Assembly (NCBI RefSeq): GCF_000170915.1
Contig: NZ_ABCT01000004.1
Location: 124,001 to 188,000, forward strand
Direction: 5' to 3'
Source: Limnobacter sp. MED105
Lineage (GTDB): Bacteria > Pseudomonadota > Gammaproteobacteria > Burkholderiales > Burkholderiaceae_B
DNA: 64,000 nucleotides
Shown: positions 48,197-63,538 of the stretch, piece by piece
How the letters are laid out: each line of letters begins with the position of its first letter
Position numbering within the stretch: position 1 is the first letter of the stretch
Position numbers and translations under genes: made by a program
Notes under the pieces: model-generated
Databases searched by the model: none
Told to the model about the DNA's origin: nothing
Seen by the model: only the letters and a program-made list of their open reading frames with translations

Positions 48197-48302
48197 GCCG
48201 GTGTTCTCCAATCGATTAAATGATGGTGGACTGTTCGCTTATTTCGATTCGCCTGAAATTCACAGAATTTGGAAGTTTTTACGATTCCGGTTAACATACC
48301 AT

Positions 48303-48440
48303 CACTCATTGGGGAGTAGCCTCCTTTTCTCGAAAAGGGCTTGCATCAACATACTTGGCCCAAAAGCCATGGTGCAAGCGGTTTCCACACTTGGCAAGAC
48401 CTTTGACTGCATTTCCACCGCTTCGGCCTGGGTGGAATGT
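48303..48440 (+). promoter_or_regulatory. yybP-ykoY (Mn2+) riboswitch
   Basis: The leader of the UPF0016 gene contains the conserved blocks of the yybP-ykoY aptamer in order: GGGGAGTAGCC at 48311-48321, a small hairpin with a TCGAAA loop, TCAACATACT around 48347, and GGCAAGACCTTTG around 48393. These are the strands that form the Mn2+-binding loops L1 and L3. A further hairpin (about 48410-48440) leads into the ribosome binding site region and could be the expression platform. Mn2+ binding should turn expression on. Confidence 0.88.
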
Positions 48441-48474
48441 GGTCATTTGGTTCTCAAGGCCGTGGAATTTTGTA

Positions 48475-58310: not shown

Positions 58311-58676
58311 TCAGACCCACTTCGGGCGTTCTATGCGGTTTGACGAGAAGGATTGAAAGCCGTTGAACTCTTCAGGTTCTTGGTCCAAGGCATTGGGAAG
58401 TGTGGCAAAAGTCAACAAACTGGGCAGTACGCTCACACTGTGGGCGTGGCAATGGTGGTGATCACCATCGCAGGTTTGGTCTTGCTGCTTGTTGTCCTGC
58501 TGTTGATACTGATGAGAGTCATGTGCAGCGTGGTGATCATGCCCATCGTGGGTATGAAGCACTGCCTCAATCGCAGATTCATGCTCTGCGCCGTGTCCGT
58601 TATAGGTTTCCACCGCTGCAAGCGCTGCTTGAAGCGGTAATACCAACATGAGAAGGACAAGGAAAAATTTTTTCAT
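58311..58676 (-). CDS. czcI: CzcI-like small periplasmic protein
   Basis: A 121-residue secreted protein with leader FLVLLMLVLPLQAALAAVE, a His-rich middle (HTHDGHDHHAAHDSHQ, GDHHHCHAHS) and the C-terminal RIERPKWV that marks the CzcI family. It is a paralog of the product at 32443. The start is the ATG at 58676; the in-frame extension to 58697 is not needed. It lies between the CDF gene and czcC. Confidence 0.82.
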   Translation of the reverse strand: MKKFFLVLLMLVLPLQAALAAVETYNGHGAEHESAIEAVLHTHDGHDHHAAHDSHQYQQQDNKQQDQTCDGDHHHCHAHSVSVLPSLLTFATLPNALDQEPEEFNGFQSFSSNRIERPKWV

Positions 58677-58689
58677 GAGCGTAAGAGTA

Positions 58690-59313
58690 TCACACACTGG
58701 TTTGGTTCAATTCGCGCCATGCTTGCGCGATGATGGTTCTAGCCGCGGTAATACCCAGAGTAGCCATTAACACAGCAACCACCAAATCAGGCCATGCACT
58801 GCCGGTCCAGGCAACCAAGCCAGCAGCGGCGACCACAGCCACATTTCCAATCGCGTCATTGCGGCTACAAAGCCACACCGATTGCATGTTTGAGTCACCT
58901 TCACGCCATTTGTAAAGCATCAAAGCTACAGCCACATTGGCAACAAGCGCCAACACCGCTATCACTCCCATCGTCAAAGGTTCAGGAACTTGCCCAGTCC
59001 AAAGGCGATAAGCAGTGAAAGCCAAAACGCCTACCCCGAAAATTCCGAGTGTGGCACCTTTAACAAGGGCCGCCTTGGCACGAATCGAAAGTGCCATGCC
59101 CAACACAAAAAGGGAAACGGCGTAATTCGCGGCATCACCAAAAAAATCAAGCGAATCGGCCAACAGGGAGACCGAACCCGCTTTCAATCCTGAAGCCACC
59201 TCAACGATGAACATGCCCAAATTGACAATCAGAGCAACCCACAACACTTTTTTGTAGGTTGGTGAAACTGTTTGGGCAGGCTGATGGTCGTGACATGTTG
59301 AACAACCAGGCAT
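58690..59313 (-). CDS. Small CDF-family cation transporter
   Basis: A 207-residue cation transporter with a Cys/His N-terminus (PGCSTCHDHQ) and about six helices, lacking the C-terminal cytoplasmic domain of CzcD. Metal residues lie in SLLADSLDFFGDAANYAV (DxxxD) and CSRNDAIGNVAVVAAAG. GAGGAGATCAAG precedes the ATG at 59313. It is the first gene behind the MerR-type promoter and probably exports Cd, Zn or Pb. Confidence 0.85.
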   Translation of the reverse strand: MPGCSTCHDHQPAQTVSPTYKKVLWVALIVNLGMFIVEVASGLKAGSVSLLADSLDFFGDAANYAVSLFVLGMALSIRAKAALVKGATLGIFGVGVLAFTAYRLWTGQVPEPLTMGVIAVLALVANVAVALMLYKWREGDSNMQSVWLCSRNDAIGNVAVVAAAGLVAWTGSAWPDLVVAVLMATLGITAARTIIAQAWRELNQTSV

Positions 59314-60077: not shown

Positions 60078-60485
60078 TTAATCTTCACCCACCAATGCGT
60101 CAATAATGGGGCAACTGGTCGAGTCGTCTGCTGCATTGCACCGAGCCACAAGCTGCAACAATGTATCTTGCATTTTAGTCAGGTCGCGGATTCTCTCGCT
60201 AACAGATTTCAGCTTGCTTTCGGCCAGATCTTGGGTTTCGCGGCAGGAACTAGCGTTGCTCAAAACCAGCAGTTCAGACACCTCTGCCAAAGTAAAACCC
60301 AATAACTGGGCGCGTTTGATAAAGCGGATCCGCTTAACGTCGCCGACACCATATTTACGAATACCGTGCAGGGGCTTGGCAGGCTGTGCCAACATGCCCA
60401 CGCGTTGATAGTAGCGAACCGTTTCAACATTCACGCCTGCTGCCTGGGCCAACCCGCCAATGCTCAATATGTGTTTTTGAATCAT
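60078..60485 (-). CDS. merR: MerR mercury-responsive regulator
   Basis: A 135-residue MerR. HTH region LSIGGLAQAAGVNVETVRYY, then IRKYGVGDVKRIRFIKRAQ. The three Hg(II)-binding cysteines are in NASSCRETQ, VARCNAADD and STSCPIIDAL, as in classic MerR. It is divergent from merT across the mer operator. Confidence 0.93.
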   Translation of the reverse strand: MIQKHILSIGGLAQAAGVNVETVRYYQRVGMLAQPAKPLHGIRKYGVGDVKRIRFIKRAQLLGFTLAEVSELLVLSNASSCRETQDLAESKLKSVSERIRDLTKMQDTLLQLVARCNAADDSTSCPIIDALVGED

Positions 60486-60554: not shown

Positions 60555-60869
60555 ATGAAACCACTTCAAAATACCGGCACCCTGATCGCAAGCGCACTGG
60601 CGGCATTCGGGGCTTCCATTTGTTGCCTTGGCCCGCTTTTGCTGCTGGCTGCAGGAGTGGGGGGTAGTTCGTCGCTGGGCATGGTCACCGCCCTGGAACC
60701 CTATCGACCCGTTTTTATCGCCATCACGCTCGGTTTGCTGGCGCTGGTTTATTACAAAATGTTCTGGCGCAAAACTGGTTGCGAGAGCTGCAACCGTGGC
60801 CAGAAAATGCTTTTCTGGGTCATCGCAGTGCTTTCACTGCTCTTGCTGGCCGTGCCATGGTTCATGTAA
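60555..60869 (+). CDS. merT: MerT mercuric transport protein
   Basis: A 104-residue inner-membrane protein with three helices. The paired cysteines in the first helix (ASICCLGPLLLL) and the second pair in the cytoplasmic loop (TGCESCNRGQK) are the Hg(II)-relay residues of MerT. It moves Hg(II) into the cytoplasm, usually to MerA. Neither merP nor merA follows here. Confidence 0.9.
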   Translation: MKPLQNTGTLIASALAAFGASICCLGPLLLLAAGVGGSSSLGMVTALEPYRPVFIAITLGLLALVYYKMFWRKTGCESCNRGQKMLFWVIAVLSLLLLAVPWFM

Positions 60870-60887: not shown

Positions 60888-61097
60888 ATGACTGACGTTG
60901 TACTTGAATCGATTTTGACCTGCCCAAGCTGTGGCGTAAGCACGCCGTGTATTATGCCCACAAACGCGTGCCAGTTTTTTTTCCAGTGTGGGCACTGCAG
61001 TACGCTACTCAAGCCCAAGCCGGGCGATTGCTGTGTATTTTGCTCATATGGGTCGACGAAATGCCCGCCTATTCAGAAAGGCAATTCGTGTTACTAG
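60888..61097 (+). CDS. GDCCVxC domain-containing protein
   Basis: A 69-residue Cys-rich cytoplasmic protein. It has ILTCPSCGVSTPCIMPTNAC, FQCGHCSTLLKPK and GDCCVFCSYGSTKCPP, which contains the GDCCVxC motif that names the family. Ten or so cysteines suit Hg(II) or zinc binding. It is the usual small gene in mer-like clusters. Starts 18 bp after merT. Confidence 0.9.
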   Translation: MTDVVLESILTCPSCGVSTPCIMPTNACQFFFQCGHCSTLLKPKPGDCCVFCSYGSTKCPPIQKGNSCY

Positions 61098-61188: not shown

Positions 61189-62046
61189 TTATCCATGTTT
61201 TTTAACACTTGTTTTTCTCCGAAAAGGCCAAGCAATTTGTTTCAAGTATGTGGTTGGCATTTTTTCACGCATGCCAACCTCCCCTTTTTTTACGCCGTTG
61301 ACTGTGTGATGGAAAGTTCTGAAAAGTTGATCCCAAATCATCCAAAACTCGCCAAAGTTGACTTGAGAATCCTCGTACTCTTTCTTGTGATGCCAGCGGT
61401 GGATTTCGGCTACACCGAGAATATTTCTTAATGGGCCAACTGTGTAGTCTAAGTTTGAGTGTTGGAACGCCAAATGGACTGCAATTATCGTGTACCAACA
61501 TCCAACCACCTCCGCAGGAGCTCCTAAAAAAATTGCTAAGAGTGTTCCCGGGCCAGCCAAAAGCAAAGCGCTCAGAGGGTGGCGGCGCTCACCATTAAGC
61601 CAGTACAGGCGTTCGGCGCTGTGATGCAGTGCATGGAGTTTCCACAAATAATCATTTTTGTGGCTCAACCAATGCATCAACCACAGTCCAAAATCAATGA
61701 TGAGACCGGCTACGAATACCTGAGCCCATAGTGGCAAAGTGTTTGGCCAAACTTTTGAGAAAGGAACAAGTACACGAATAATCTCTGCTATTTCAACGCT
61801 TGCAAAAATAAACCCCAAGCTAAATGTTGCGTGAAGAATATCAGGAAGGGTATCTTCATGGTCTAGGTTCCAAGATGGTTCGTACGGCAAGACCCTTTCC
61901 AAGATGGCCACTGCGCTCATGCCTGCACCAGCAACCAAGATGGCATACGGCCAATGAGAAATACCTGCTTCAATTAATAAGAGCTGAGCAAAGGCGGTGA
62001 TACCGAAAATAATCGGATATGAGCCCAAGCGAACTAATTCATTCAT
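61189..62046 (-). CDS. Sterol desaturase / fatty acid hydroxylase family membrane enzyme
   Basis: A 285-residue membrane di-iron oxygenase. The His clusters HWLSHKNDYLWKLHALHHSA and HRWHHKKEYEDSQ, together with AVHLAFQHSNLDY, match the fatty acid hydroxylase superfamily. About four helices flank them. It may hydroxylate or desaturate a lipid. It is not linked by spacing to the mer genes. Substrate unknown. Confidence 0.88.
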   Translation of the reverse strand: MNELVRLGSYPIIFGITAFAQLLLIEAGISHWPYAILVAGAGMSAVAILERVLPYEPSWNLDHEDTLPDILHATFSLGFIFASVEIAEIIRVLVPFSKVWPNTLPLWAQVFVAGLIIDFGLWLMHWLSHKNDYLWKLHALHHSAERLYWLNGERRHPLSALLLAGPGTLLAIFLGAPAEVVGCWYTIIAVHLAFQHSNLDYTVGPLRNILGVAEIHRWHHKKEYEDSQVNFGEFWMIWDQLFRTFHHTVNGVKKGEVGMREKMPTTYLKQIAWPFRRKTSVKKHG

Positions 62047-62119
62047 GACGGATTCCCCAAGATTTGTTGATGAACGCCAATACTCAACGAATCTGTTCCC
62101 TTTGTATTGAATGAAAGAG

Positions 62120-62854
62120 CTACCGATTTTTATGGCTTGTTATTGCCGTTTGGGCGCTCATGTAGGTAATTCCAAACGCATGTGCAAACGCCCGGCTCAT
62201 GTGAGCCTGATCACTAAATCCTCCAGCGAGGGCTGCGTCGATTGGAGACTCTCCCGCTAGCATCGCGTTAATCGCCAAACGGAGTTTTAGCCATTTTTTG
62301 TAACTCCTAACCGGAATTCCGAGTTGTTCCACGAACCAATGTGAGAATCTGGAAGGCGACATACCCGCGATCTCTGCCAAAGAGAAGCGGTTTGTGTAAT
62401 CTTCCTCATTCAAAGCAGAATTTATGCGGGAAAGTACAGAATATATTCTTGAATCCATTGTTTGACTTGGACGCAAGACAGTCAGTATCGCTTCTAGAGG
62501 GTTTTTTGCATTGACCAACGTCTTAAGGCAACTTGTGAGCTCTAAAGCCCCCCAACTGTCATTTAGACCTGAGCTTGGGTCAACCAAATGGTCGAACAAT
62601 CGGGATGCTGGGTCAAAGTAAAACGAGCAAACTTTTCCGGTCACAAGGCGATGTTCGACGTTGGGTCTGAAATATGCAGCTTGAACAGATAAACAGTCTA
62701 AACCTGGTATCTCCACATAAAAAGTATCCTCTAACGCGATGGTGATTTGGGCTGCCCAGTGCCGATGCATTGTGTTGTCTCCGACATTGCCTCGGAATAC
62801 ACCGATGCCGTCTGCAATCAACAAGTCACCCATCCAGTTCGTTTTTTCACTCAC
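62120..62854 (-). CDS. AraC-family transcriptional regulator
   Basis: A 244-residue regulator. The N-terminal cupin-like sensor region contains MHRHWAAQITIALED and the C-terminal AraC domain contains FSLAEIAGMSPSRFSHWFVE and DAALAGGFSDQAHMSRAFAH. The start is GTG at 62854; an ATG at 62833 is an alternative. It may control the sterol-desaturase-like gene 73 bp downstream. Confidence 0.87.
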   Translation of the reverse strand: MSEKTNWMGDLLIADGIGVFRGNVGDNTMHRHWAAQITIALEDTFYVEIPGLDCLSVQAAYFRPNVEHRLVTGKVCSFYFDPASRLFDHLVDPSSGLNDSWGALELTSCLKTLVNAKNPLEAILTVLRPSQTMDSRIYSVLSRINSALNEEDYTNRFSLAEIAGMSPSRFSHWFVEQLGIPVRSYKKWLKLRLAINAMLAGESPIDAALAGGFSDQAHMSRAFAHAFGITYMSAQTAITSHKNR

Positions 62855-62865
62855 GTGAAACTCTA

Positions 62866-62897
62866 CCCAAAAGACAACCGGGCCGATGCGGCCCGGT
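62866..62897 (-). terminator. Rho-independent terminator after the 27-codon gene
   Basis: On the minus strand, ACCGGGCC / GGCCCGGT forms a perfect 8-bp GC-rich stem with a 5-base loop, followed by TTGTCTTTT. It starts 12 bases after the stop codon of the tiny ORF at 62910-62993 and separates it from the AraC gene. Confidence 0.85.
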
Positions 62898-62909
62898 CTA
62901 ACTAACGCT

Positions 62910-62993
62910 TTACGCGCAAAGTGGGCATGCTGCCAAGGCTACCCCTACAAGACCAAACACACCAACCGCGGCTGCGAACATTTTAACTTTCAT
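62910..62993 (-). CDS. 27-residue lipopeptide with CPLC motif
   Basis: A 28-codon ORF read on the minus strand. It opens with MKVKMF, has a hydrophobic stretch (AAAVGVFGLVGVALAA) and ends CPLCA before TAA. LAAC is a good lipobox, so signal peptidase II would leave a five-residue, Cys-acylated CPLCA. Support: AAAGGAGAT at 63000-63008 with a 6-base spacing, a strong terminator directly after the stop, and a CueR-type operator/promoter directly before it. The two cysteines of CPLC could bind Cu(I). No known family is recognised. It is too short to be certain. Confidence 0.65.
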   Translation of the reverse strand: MKVKMFAAAVGVFGLVGVALAACPLCA

Positions 62994-63036
62994 CGCAAAA
63001 TCTCCTTTAACAAGACAAGGGAACACTCCCATACAG

Positions 63037-63067
63037 ATCGTGGACCTTCCATCCACTGGAAGGTCAA
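63037..63067 (-). promoter_or_regulatory. CueR-type MerR-family promoter
   Basis: On the minus strand, TTGACC, then a 19-bp spacer, then CACGAT. The dyad ACCTTCC-N7-GGAAGGT is the CueR/ActP consensus for Cu(I)-responsive MerR regulators. The -10 is weak, as expected for an activated promoter. It starts 3 bp after the stop of the MerR gene at 63071 and drives the 27-codon gene. Confidence 0.82.
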
Positions 63068-63070
63068 GCG

Positions 63071-63538
63071 CTATTTTTTGGCATCGTTTCTGATGGGAAT
63101 AATGTAGTCAGCAATTAGAAACTCACCTTCTGGTTCATTCGGGTTTTGTGCAAGTTCATGCGCGATTGCAGCATTATTCGCCTGAATGTCCGTCAACTTT
63201 TGTTCTAGCGCCTCGAGGTGAATCTTCACTTGTTGGACTTCAACTAATTTTAACGCGATTAATTCGTCTACTTTCGCTCTGGAGGCACAACCGCAGGCTG
63301 GTCCCTGATCGTAATAATCCAGCACTGACTGAATTTCTTTGATCGAGAAGTCAAGTTCGCGTGCCTTTTTGACAAAATCAAGTCTGGACAAGTCCTCTTG
63401 CCCGAAAACGCGGTTTTTGCCGGAGGTAAACCAAGACTCGGAAGTAGCCCTTTTCGGTGCAATCAAGCCCTGGTCCTCGTAGAATCGAATAGTTTTAGGA
63501 CTCAAACCGAGTTTCTTAGCTACTTCGCTGATTTTCAT
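63071..63538 (-). CDS. MerR-family metal-responsive regulator
   Basis: A 155-residue regulator. HTH domain: MKISEVAKKLGLSPKTIRFY, then NRVFGQEDLSRLDFVKK. The effector region has a Cys cluster, DQGPACGCASRAKVDE, near residues 81-87, not the C-terminal CxxxxxxxC loop of CueR. It carries a long C-terminal tail (GEFLIADYIIPIRNDAKK). GAGG lies before the ATG. Its upstream sequence has TTGACT-N17-TAGTAT on the minus strand with an imperfect dyad. Metal specificity is uncertain; a CueR-like box lies immediately downstream. Confidence 0.85.
   Translation of the reverse strand: MKISEVAKKLGLSPKTIRFYEDQGLIAPKRATSESWFTSGKNRVFGQEDLSRLDFVKKARELDFSIKEIQSVLDYYDQGPACGCASRAKVDELIALKLVEVQQVKIHLEALEQKLTDIQANNAAIAHELAQNPNEPEGEFLIADYIIPIRNDAKK

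Follow-up and report, generated by a model that had tools for sequence, protein, structure and literature searches.

A conserved CxxC micropeptide gene beside a divergent MerR-family regulator in Limnobacter

The window analyzed here, a 64,000-nucleotide stretch of the genome of Limnobacter sp. MED105, carries close to its end a MerR-family regulator gene (merR2) that is followed on the same strand by a promoter, a ribosome binding site, a very short ORF, and an intrinsic terminator (Table 1). These elements lie where an earlier note on this DNA had placed them, and the 27 and 28 codons that it gave for the ORF describe one reading frame of 27 amino acids plus a stop codon. The encoded micropeptide consists of a signal-peptide-like N terminus, an Ala-x-Ala motif (AxA) at residues 19 to 21, and CPLC at residues 23 to 26. 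Genes linked to the cassette encode a GDCCVxC-domain protein, a MerT-like transporter, and a second, Hg-type MerR regulator.

Table 1. Coordinates of the merR2-micropeptide cassette and neighboring genes in the window
Feature	Position	Strand	Basis
Hg-type MerR regulator gene	60078..60485	minus	TIGR02051, 160 bits (cutoff 150.85); linked neighbor
MerT-like transporter gene	60555..60869	plus	PF02411, 2e-20; synteny; linked neighbor
GDCCVxC-domain protein gene	60888..61097	plus	NF041374, 95.6 bits; linked neighbor
AraC regulator and OlsE-like fatty-acid-hydroxylase genes	61189-62854		between GDCCVxC and micropeptide genes in the window type
Intrinsic terminator	62876..62898	minus	stem of 10 pairs (8 G-C), loop of 3, T-rich tail
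Micropeptide ORF MKVKMFAAAVGVFGLVGVALAACPLCA, 27 aa	62910..62993 (ATG 62993, stop ends 62910)	minus	conservation and codon-position tests
Ribosome binding site AAAGGAGA	63001..63008	minus	sequence; AGGAG invariant across 7 aligned rows
-10 hexamer CACGAT, weak	63037..63042	minus	read at 19-bp spacer; A2 and T6 kept in 10/10 copies
Operator dyad ACCTTCC-N7-GGAAGGT	63044..63064	minus	sequence; part common to all copies is TTCCAGTNNNTGGAA
-35 hexamer TTGACC	63062..63067	minus	sequence; TTGAC in 10/10 copies
MerR-family regulator gene merR2, 155 aa	63071..63538	minus	Pfam, NCBIfam, 9-row alignment, nearest solved relatives

The promoter is of the MerR-family kind, with a 19-bp spacer and a dyad core that, like TTGAC, is present in all 10 copies of the cassette. 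The register of the -10 hexamer (xAxxxT in every copy) was chosen by us at this spacing. All cassettes share TTGAC(C/A)TTCCAGT-N3-TGGAA. The perfect CueR dyad reported earlier is indeed present in the window, but among cassettes its right arm, GGAAGGT, is confined to the window's lineage. Taken alone, the signals are weak, as the 2-kb region contains two terminator-like sites against 2.1 expected, and a sigma-70 scan with spacers of 16 to 18 bp did not include the micropeptide promoter among its predictions. Support beyond chance comes from conservation in relatives, in which a GC-rich hairpin-like stretch persists after the ORF while its sequence drifts. A second inverted repeat surrounds the -10 region in core-type copies (window positions 63050-63016; relatives L013, L015, and L009) and is weak in the window type. 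Its arms (GGAACATTC..GAATGTTCC in genome G001 and GGAACGTCC..GGACGTTCC in G012) show matching changes on both sides, and this candidate, read by eye, could be a second operator.

merR2 occurs in 10 copies in eight Limnobacter assemblies, and the micropeptide ORF lies downstream of every one. Nine copies come from seven of the 16 genomes of the genus that were searched (the window's genome is G000; G001 and G007 have two copies each), and the tenth is from a further assembly, Limnobacter sp. P1 (locus L014). Six loci are of a core, or chromosomal, type (G001, G004, G007, G012, G013, and P1), and four copies are of the window type (G000, G011, G007, and G001). With G011 left out, its ORF being identical to that of the window, nine distinct ORF rows remain, in which the columns that vary number 7, 3, and 19 for codon positions 1, 2, and 3. 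When the same substitutions were placed at random in seven pairs, the mean number of nonsynonymous codons was 4.3 to 13.3, against 0 to 5 observed; draws as low as the observed value made up ≤0.22% in six pairs and 3.2% in the seventh (G001a/G012). NG86 dN/dS values are 0.044 to 0.090 between the window and six core types and 0 to 0.29 among core types, the highest in G012 pairs; dS is saturated in three G004 pairs. Counter to this pattern, the recent island variants G007a and G001b are each set apart from the window by a single nonsynonymous change and no synonymous one.

Compared with five core types, the window has an amino acid identity of 81 to 93% but a nucleotide identity of only 28 to 46% over the 70 positions after the ORF. 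Invariant positions in eight aligned rows are K2, V3, K4, F6, A8 to G11, F13 to V16, V18, A19, A21, and C23-P-L-C26. The earlier note had staked its reading on conservation of the ORF in relatives, and the ORF survived that comparison with mostly synonymous change. The alignments indicate that the 27-residue ORF is a real gene, conserved and under selection. A chance ORF was rejected on the random-placement test and dN/dS, and a known leader RNA was also discarded, as Rfam gave no hit around the ORF at its gathering thresholds.

Searches beyond the genus used even samples of the class and order, with a limited number of candidates per genome scored. A single-sequence search with merR2 (E ≤1e-15) found 8 of 100 genomes, namely the seven Limnobacter genomes and G044, whose match (37% identity, 3e-16) has no such micropeptide ORF in its flank. 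The merR2 profile found none in 252 other genomes of the family (E ≤1e-18) or in 339 others of the class (E ≤1e-15). With the peptide as a single query, two weak rows in the genus were dropped (G001:C10, E 0.98; G014, E 1.36). The peptide profile gave weak matches in 14 of 399 genomes of the order besides two Limnobacter genomes, and the frames of the 8 of 15 such loci that were inspected contain no signal-peptide ORF ending in CPLC. The sole weak match among 369 genomes of the class (G744) was rejected as ...ANPQC... within a 95-residue frame. Plasmids and phages gave no match, and viral contigs held no relative. A tblastn search of plasmids with the MerR returned 2,434 records, all below 60% identity, the best 30 of which are mercury MerR proteins at ~35%. 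Scanning contigs of close relatives for MerR2 added 34 loci at 28 to 39% identity (L019-L052), which are outside the 10-copy ORF count.

Of 369 sampled genomes of the class, 71, the window's included, match the linked GDCCVxC (seleno)protein family, 67 of them above the cutoff. A scan of the ~1.5 kb around these genes for short, hydrophobic ORFs carrying CxxC at the C terminus found none in 30 non-Limnobacter loci. It found the peptide at five of eight Limnobacter loci; it misses two window-type loci, where the peptide is too far away, and the locus of G005 has none. Outside Limnobacter, neither merR2 nor the peptide turned up in the sampled searches. In a literature coverage without most subscription papers, which makes absence a weak argument, no MerR-controlled CxxC micropeptide was described, and nothing appeared under the GDCCVxC name or on Limnobacter and mercury resistance.

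MerR2 is a member of the MerR family in the general sense, with an N-terminal winged helix-turn-helix (HTH) domain (PF13411 [MerR_1], 4.5e-19; PF09278, 1.3e-11) and a long dimerization helix, which spans residues 84 to 131 in a structural model with a mean pLDDT of 74 (below 50 at residues 34 to 40 and 137 to 155). It falls below the cutoff of each equivalog family compared: CadR-PbrR, the best NCBIfam match (67.3 bits; cutoff, 151.45), MerR (Hg) (66.7 bits; cutoff, 150.85), and CueR (60.3 bits; cutoff, 147.4). The nearest solved relatives in both sequence and fold are PbrR691 and CadR. The only cysteines of MerR2 are C82 and C84 (CGC); both are invariant in nine aligned rows, none of which has a cysteine after C84. 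C84 aligns with the cysteine that opens the dimer helix of CadR and PbrR, where it serves as a ligand.

In CadR, PbrR, CueR, and MerR, C-terminal cysteines complete the metal site: CueR has a two-Cys Cu(I) loop (C112 and C120), CadR and PbrR have two C-terminal cysteines in addition to that at the dimer helix start, and MerR (Hg) uses C82, C117, and C126. MerR2 has in their place a conserved EPxGEFLIADYI(I/L)P tail. It shares with CadR and PbrR the fold, the HTH, the 19-bp-spaced promoter, and the cysteine at the dimerization helix start, but differs in the additional Cys82, a wing about five residues longer, the C terminus, and a target that is a downstream micropeptide gene on the same strand. 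Judged from these features, MerR2 resembles a divergent relative of CadR/PbrR. The missing C-terminal cysteines weaken the case for a metal inducer and leave room for redox or electrophile sensing. A metal is still the likelier inducer in view of the linked genes, with copper not favored over Hg, Cd, or Pb.

The operator pattern TTGACMTTCCAGTNNNTGGAA, with at most one mismatch, has nine matches in the 16 Limnobacter genomes, all at cassettes, and none in the nine genomes without merR2; its backwards control has a single match in the 16 genomes. merR2, operator, and peptide therefore occur together, with no second operator seen in the genus, and the micropeptide looks like the sole target of MerR2, which presumably binds this site. 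The operator had been described earlier as CueR type, with Cu(I) as the possible ligand of the product. In the window's lineage the likeness to a CueR/copA-type operator is evident (a TTGACC -35 with ACCTTCC-N7-GGAAGGT), but the right arm is not retained in other cassette lineages, and the cassette site is absent where merR2 is absent. Exact CueR-like matches are limited to the four window-type cassettes and one perfect TTGACCTTCC-N7-GGAAGG outside cassettes (G004:C27:85462), 45 bases from an HMA-type match. Because of this last site, window-type copies could be read and regulated by CueR. A different CueR-like site, TTGACCTTACCATGATTGGAAG, is present in 9 of the 16 genomes and is taken here as the likelier CueR site, since it lies between two HMA-type matches where coordinates were compared (G000, G007, G011, and G012). 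The loose CueR-like pattern (≤2 mismatches) is close to the level of its backwards control, and only recurring or exact sites were used. The perfect copy in G004 keeps the CueR attribution alive, but it is weakened by the lineage-specific dyad, the low CueR score of MerR2, and the likelier site elsewhere.

The GDCCVxC gene adjoins the micropeptide gene convergently in all six core-type loci, and full MerT and Hg-type MerR genes follow in four of them (G001, G004, G013, and P1); MerT is truncated in the core locus of G007, and neither gene was found at the G012 locus. Among the 16 genomes, GDCCVxC is present in eight: all seven with the cassette and one of the nine others (G005). In G005 the corresponding locus (DsbA-like gene, GDCCVxC, MerT, and Hg-type MerR) lacks both merR2 and the peptide, one case of joint absence. 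In G004 the block merR(Hg)-merT-GDCCVxC-peptide-merR2 has a different location, between flagellin-type and response-regulator genes, so these five genes may travel together. CDF genes differ in place across core-type loci. AraC, which is truncated in G007, follows the peptide in window-type copies; three of these copies also have at least part of the hydroxylase gene after the peptide (truncated in that of G001). No GDCCVxC gene adjoins the window-type copies of G007 and G001.

MerP, the periplasmic Hg carrier of mer operons, also combines a signal sequence with a CxxC pair, and MerT lies near the micropeptide in several loci. The micropeptide differs from MerP in having only 27 residues, too few for an HMA fold, and its own MerR and promoter; it has no NCBIfam match, TIGR02052/HMA included. 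Persistence of the cassette where MerT is truncated or was not found indicates that the peptide is independent of MerT and rules out a mini-MerP strictly serving that transporter. MerA and MerP exceed their cutoffs only in G001, G004, G007, and G014, i.e., in three of the seven cassette genomes, and are missing from the window's genome, so the cassette appears independent of classical mercury reduction. None of the MerP-type matches listed for the genus is at a cassette.

The AraC gene, which in the window begins 55 nucleotides past the ORF and runs in its direction, would suit a leader peptide or other regulatory ORF that acts through its translation on the next gene. In Bordetella and Rhodobacter, copper genes are reported to be controlled by exported nascent proteins with a Cys pair that are encoded upstream of them (PMC9426467 and PMC9973294). 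CruR/CutF (DUF2946) proteins resemble the micropeptide as small exported Cys-pair products in a metal context, but CruR is a protein of 145 residues with a RAPP stall motif, and its gene stands first in an operon. The micropeptide has no proline-rich stall motif and is followed by a terminator; in core-type loci the neighbor is convergent, which leaves nothing downstream to regulate, unlike in CruR/CutF regulatory ORFs, which precede a regulated gene on their own strand. This explanation was rejected as scarcely tenable.

All four window-type copies have three large genes upstream of merR2, encoding 496, 327, and 697 residues (G000:C43:187606-192160; L076:7607-12161). The middle product is an AAA ATPase, the other two have no Pfam or NCBIfam match, and together the three resemble a divergent transposition set of the Tn7/Tn5053 kind, a putative assignment. 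Such a setting, together with the hydrophobic character of a 27-residue peptide, raises the question of a small membrane-active toxin or toxin-antitoxin-like module on a mobile element. We consider this very improbable: no antitoxin or antisense partner was noticed, an invariant CPLC tail is unexpected in a pore peptide, and the G001 island copy (L075/L017, G001:C6) retains an intact peptide gene beside a merR2 split by a frameshift. An intact core copy is present elsewhere in that genome.

The micropeptide has the features of Sec export and signal peptidase I (SPase I) cleavage: an MKVK start, residues 5 to 18 hydrophobic by eye, and A19-x-A21 in nine of nine distinct rows. The earlier note had proposed a lipopeptide, possibly a Cu(I) scavenger or sensor at the membrane. 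In such a product SPase II would cut LAA|C and Cys23 would be lipidated, leaving a CPLCA lipopentapeptide in the membrane. Seven of the nine rows, the window's among them, do fit a lipobox (LAAC or MAAC), and lipoproteins typically have a short c-region. The lipobox rule calls for Ala, Gly, or Ser before the cysteine, however, and the motif is broken by Glu at -1 (LAEC) in the G007 island copy and by Val (MAVC) in the sole copy of G012, while AxA and CPLC are invariant. Lipidation would also tie up one invariant cysteine in a thioether, so that the CxxC pair would no longer be free. The lipobox is therefore not conserved across the orthologues, a lipopeptide is quite unlikely, and an SPase I hexapeptide or the absence of cleavage is favored over it.

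Without cleavage, the product would be a single-span membrane micropeptide modulating a partner such as a CDF protein, MerT, or another transporter, in the manner of small stress-induced membrane proteins. The hydrophobic segment, in which Gly11 and Gly14 do not vary, is conserved nearly as well as the tail, which seems to exceed the need of a plain signal peptide. The loss or truncation of MerT in two of six core-type loci and the variable place of CDF genes speak against this, and the invariance of AxA suggests processing, so we judge this possibility to be unlikely. SPase I probably cuts the precursor after Ala21, leaving the hexapeptide xCPLC(A/S).

What stands of the earlier interpretation is a real, very small gene under a MerR-type promoter of its own, with a two-cysteine product that resembles a signal peptide and with a metal-resistance neighborhood; its lipopeptide and its CueR/Cu(I) assignment are weakened. 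The reading that we prefer, at somewhat less than an even chance, is a two-gene stress cassette in which a MerR2 responsive to soft metals or thiol stress would drive one exported dithiol micropeptide that would buffer metal or redox stress in the periplasm. MerR2 would keep the 19-bp-spaced promoter silent until a thiophilic stress is sensed through Cys82/Cys84; a soft metal ion is the most likely such stress, and a thiol-oxidizing or electrophilic compound is less likely. It would then distort the spacer, giving a short, terminator-ended mRNA that encodes the precursor alone. The signal-like N terminus would take the precursor to the inner membrane, where SPase I probably releases the periplasmic hexapeptide x-Cys-Pro-Leu-Cys-(Ala/Ser); if uncut, the precursor would stay anchored with CPLC on the periplasmic side. 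The dithiol may bind metal or accept oxidizing equivalents, alongside the products of the linked GDCCVxC, MerT, and CDF genes.

This periplasmic-buffer model is consistent with the retention of the ORF in every copy under mostly synonymous change between lineages, the confinement of the operator to cassettes, the joint absence of the pair in G005, and the invariant AxA and CPLC. It also agrees with the presence of GDCCVxC in every cassette genome and its convergent placement in all core-type loci, the five-gene block at another site in G004, and the proximity of MerR2 to Pb/Cd sensors in sequence and fold, with C84 aligned. Against it stand the lack in MerR2 of the C-terminal cysteines of a metal site, the frameshifted merR2 next to an intact peptide gene in the G001 island, the solely nonsynonymous change in each of the newest island variants, the weak -10, the presence of MerA and MerP in only a minority of cassette genomes, and the persistence of the cassette where MerT is truncated or was not found.

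The order of regulator and then short pre-peptide with a few-residue C-terminal product recalls the Phr, PapR, and inhibitor-peptide loci of Gram-positive bacteria, where pre-peptides are laid out in this way. A peptide signal, i.e., an exported hexapeptide sensed back by MerR2 directly or via oxidation or metal loading, would fit the invariant tail and the one regulator with one detectable target. Peptide pheromones usually diversify between lineages, though, and this tail is undiversified; the regulator family and the Gram-negative host are different, no importer was noticed among the linked genes, and MerR2 consists of MerR domains alone. A pheromone-like role is thus highly unlikely. A more ambitious form of the cassette reading, which we regard as possible but doubtful, is a self-contained system in which the regulon of a CGC-sensor MerR would be one 27-residue precursor releasing periplasmic xCPLC(A/S) as a minimal metal/redox dithiol or even a thiol-based signal.

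Activation by MerR and small exported peptides are known separately; one sensor with a putative six-residue dithiol product is, as far as we have seen, a new combination. If the preferred reading is correct, the whole output of a metal- or thiol-type sensor would be a six-residue peptide. This would rank with the smallest stress effectors that genes encode, and the ability of an isolated CxxC peptide to protect the periplasm could be tested directly. Genes this small, possibly missed by annotation, could by themselves make up the output of regulator families that are well known. In the more ambitious form, the hexapeptide would be a functional bacterial counterpart to phytochelatin or to a free thioredoxin-like active site.

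Two other features of the window concern metals. A 128-residue, His-rich, signal-peptide-like protein without a Pfam match is encoded at 58311-58697, beside CDF and outer membrane efflux genes, and presumably resembles CzcI/DUF2946-like regulators. A yybP-ykoY manganese riboswitch (116 bits) is located at 48299-48471.
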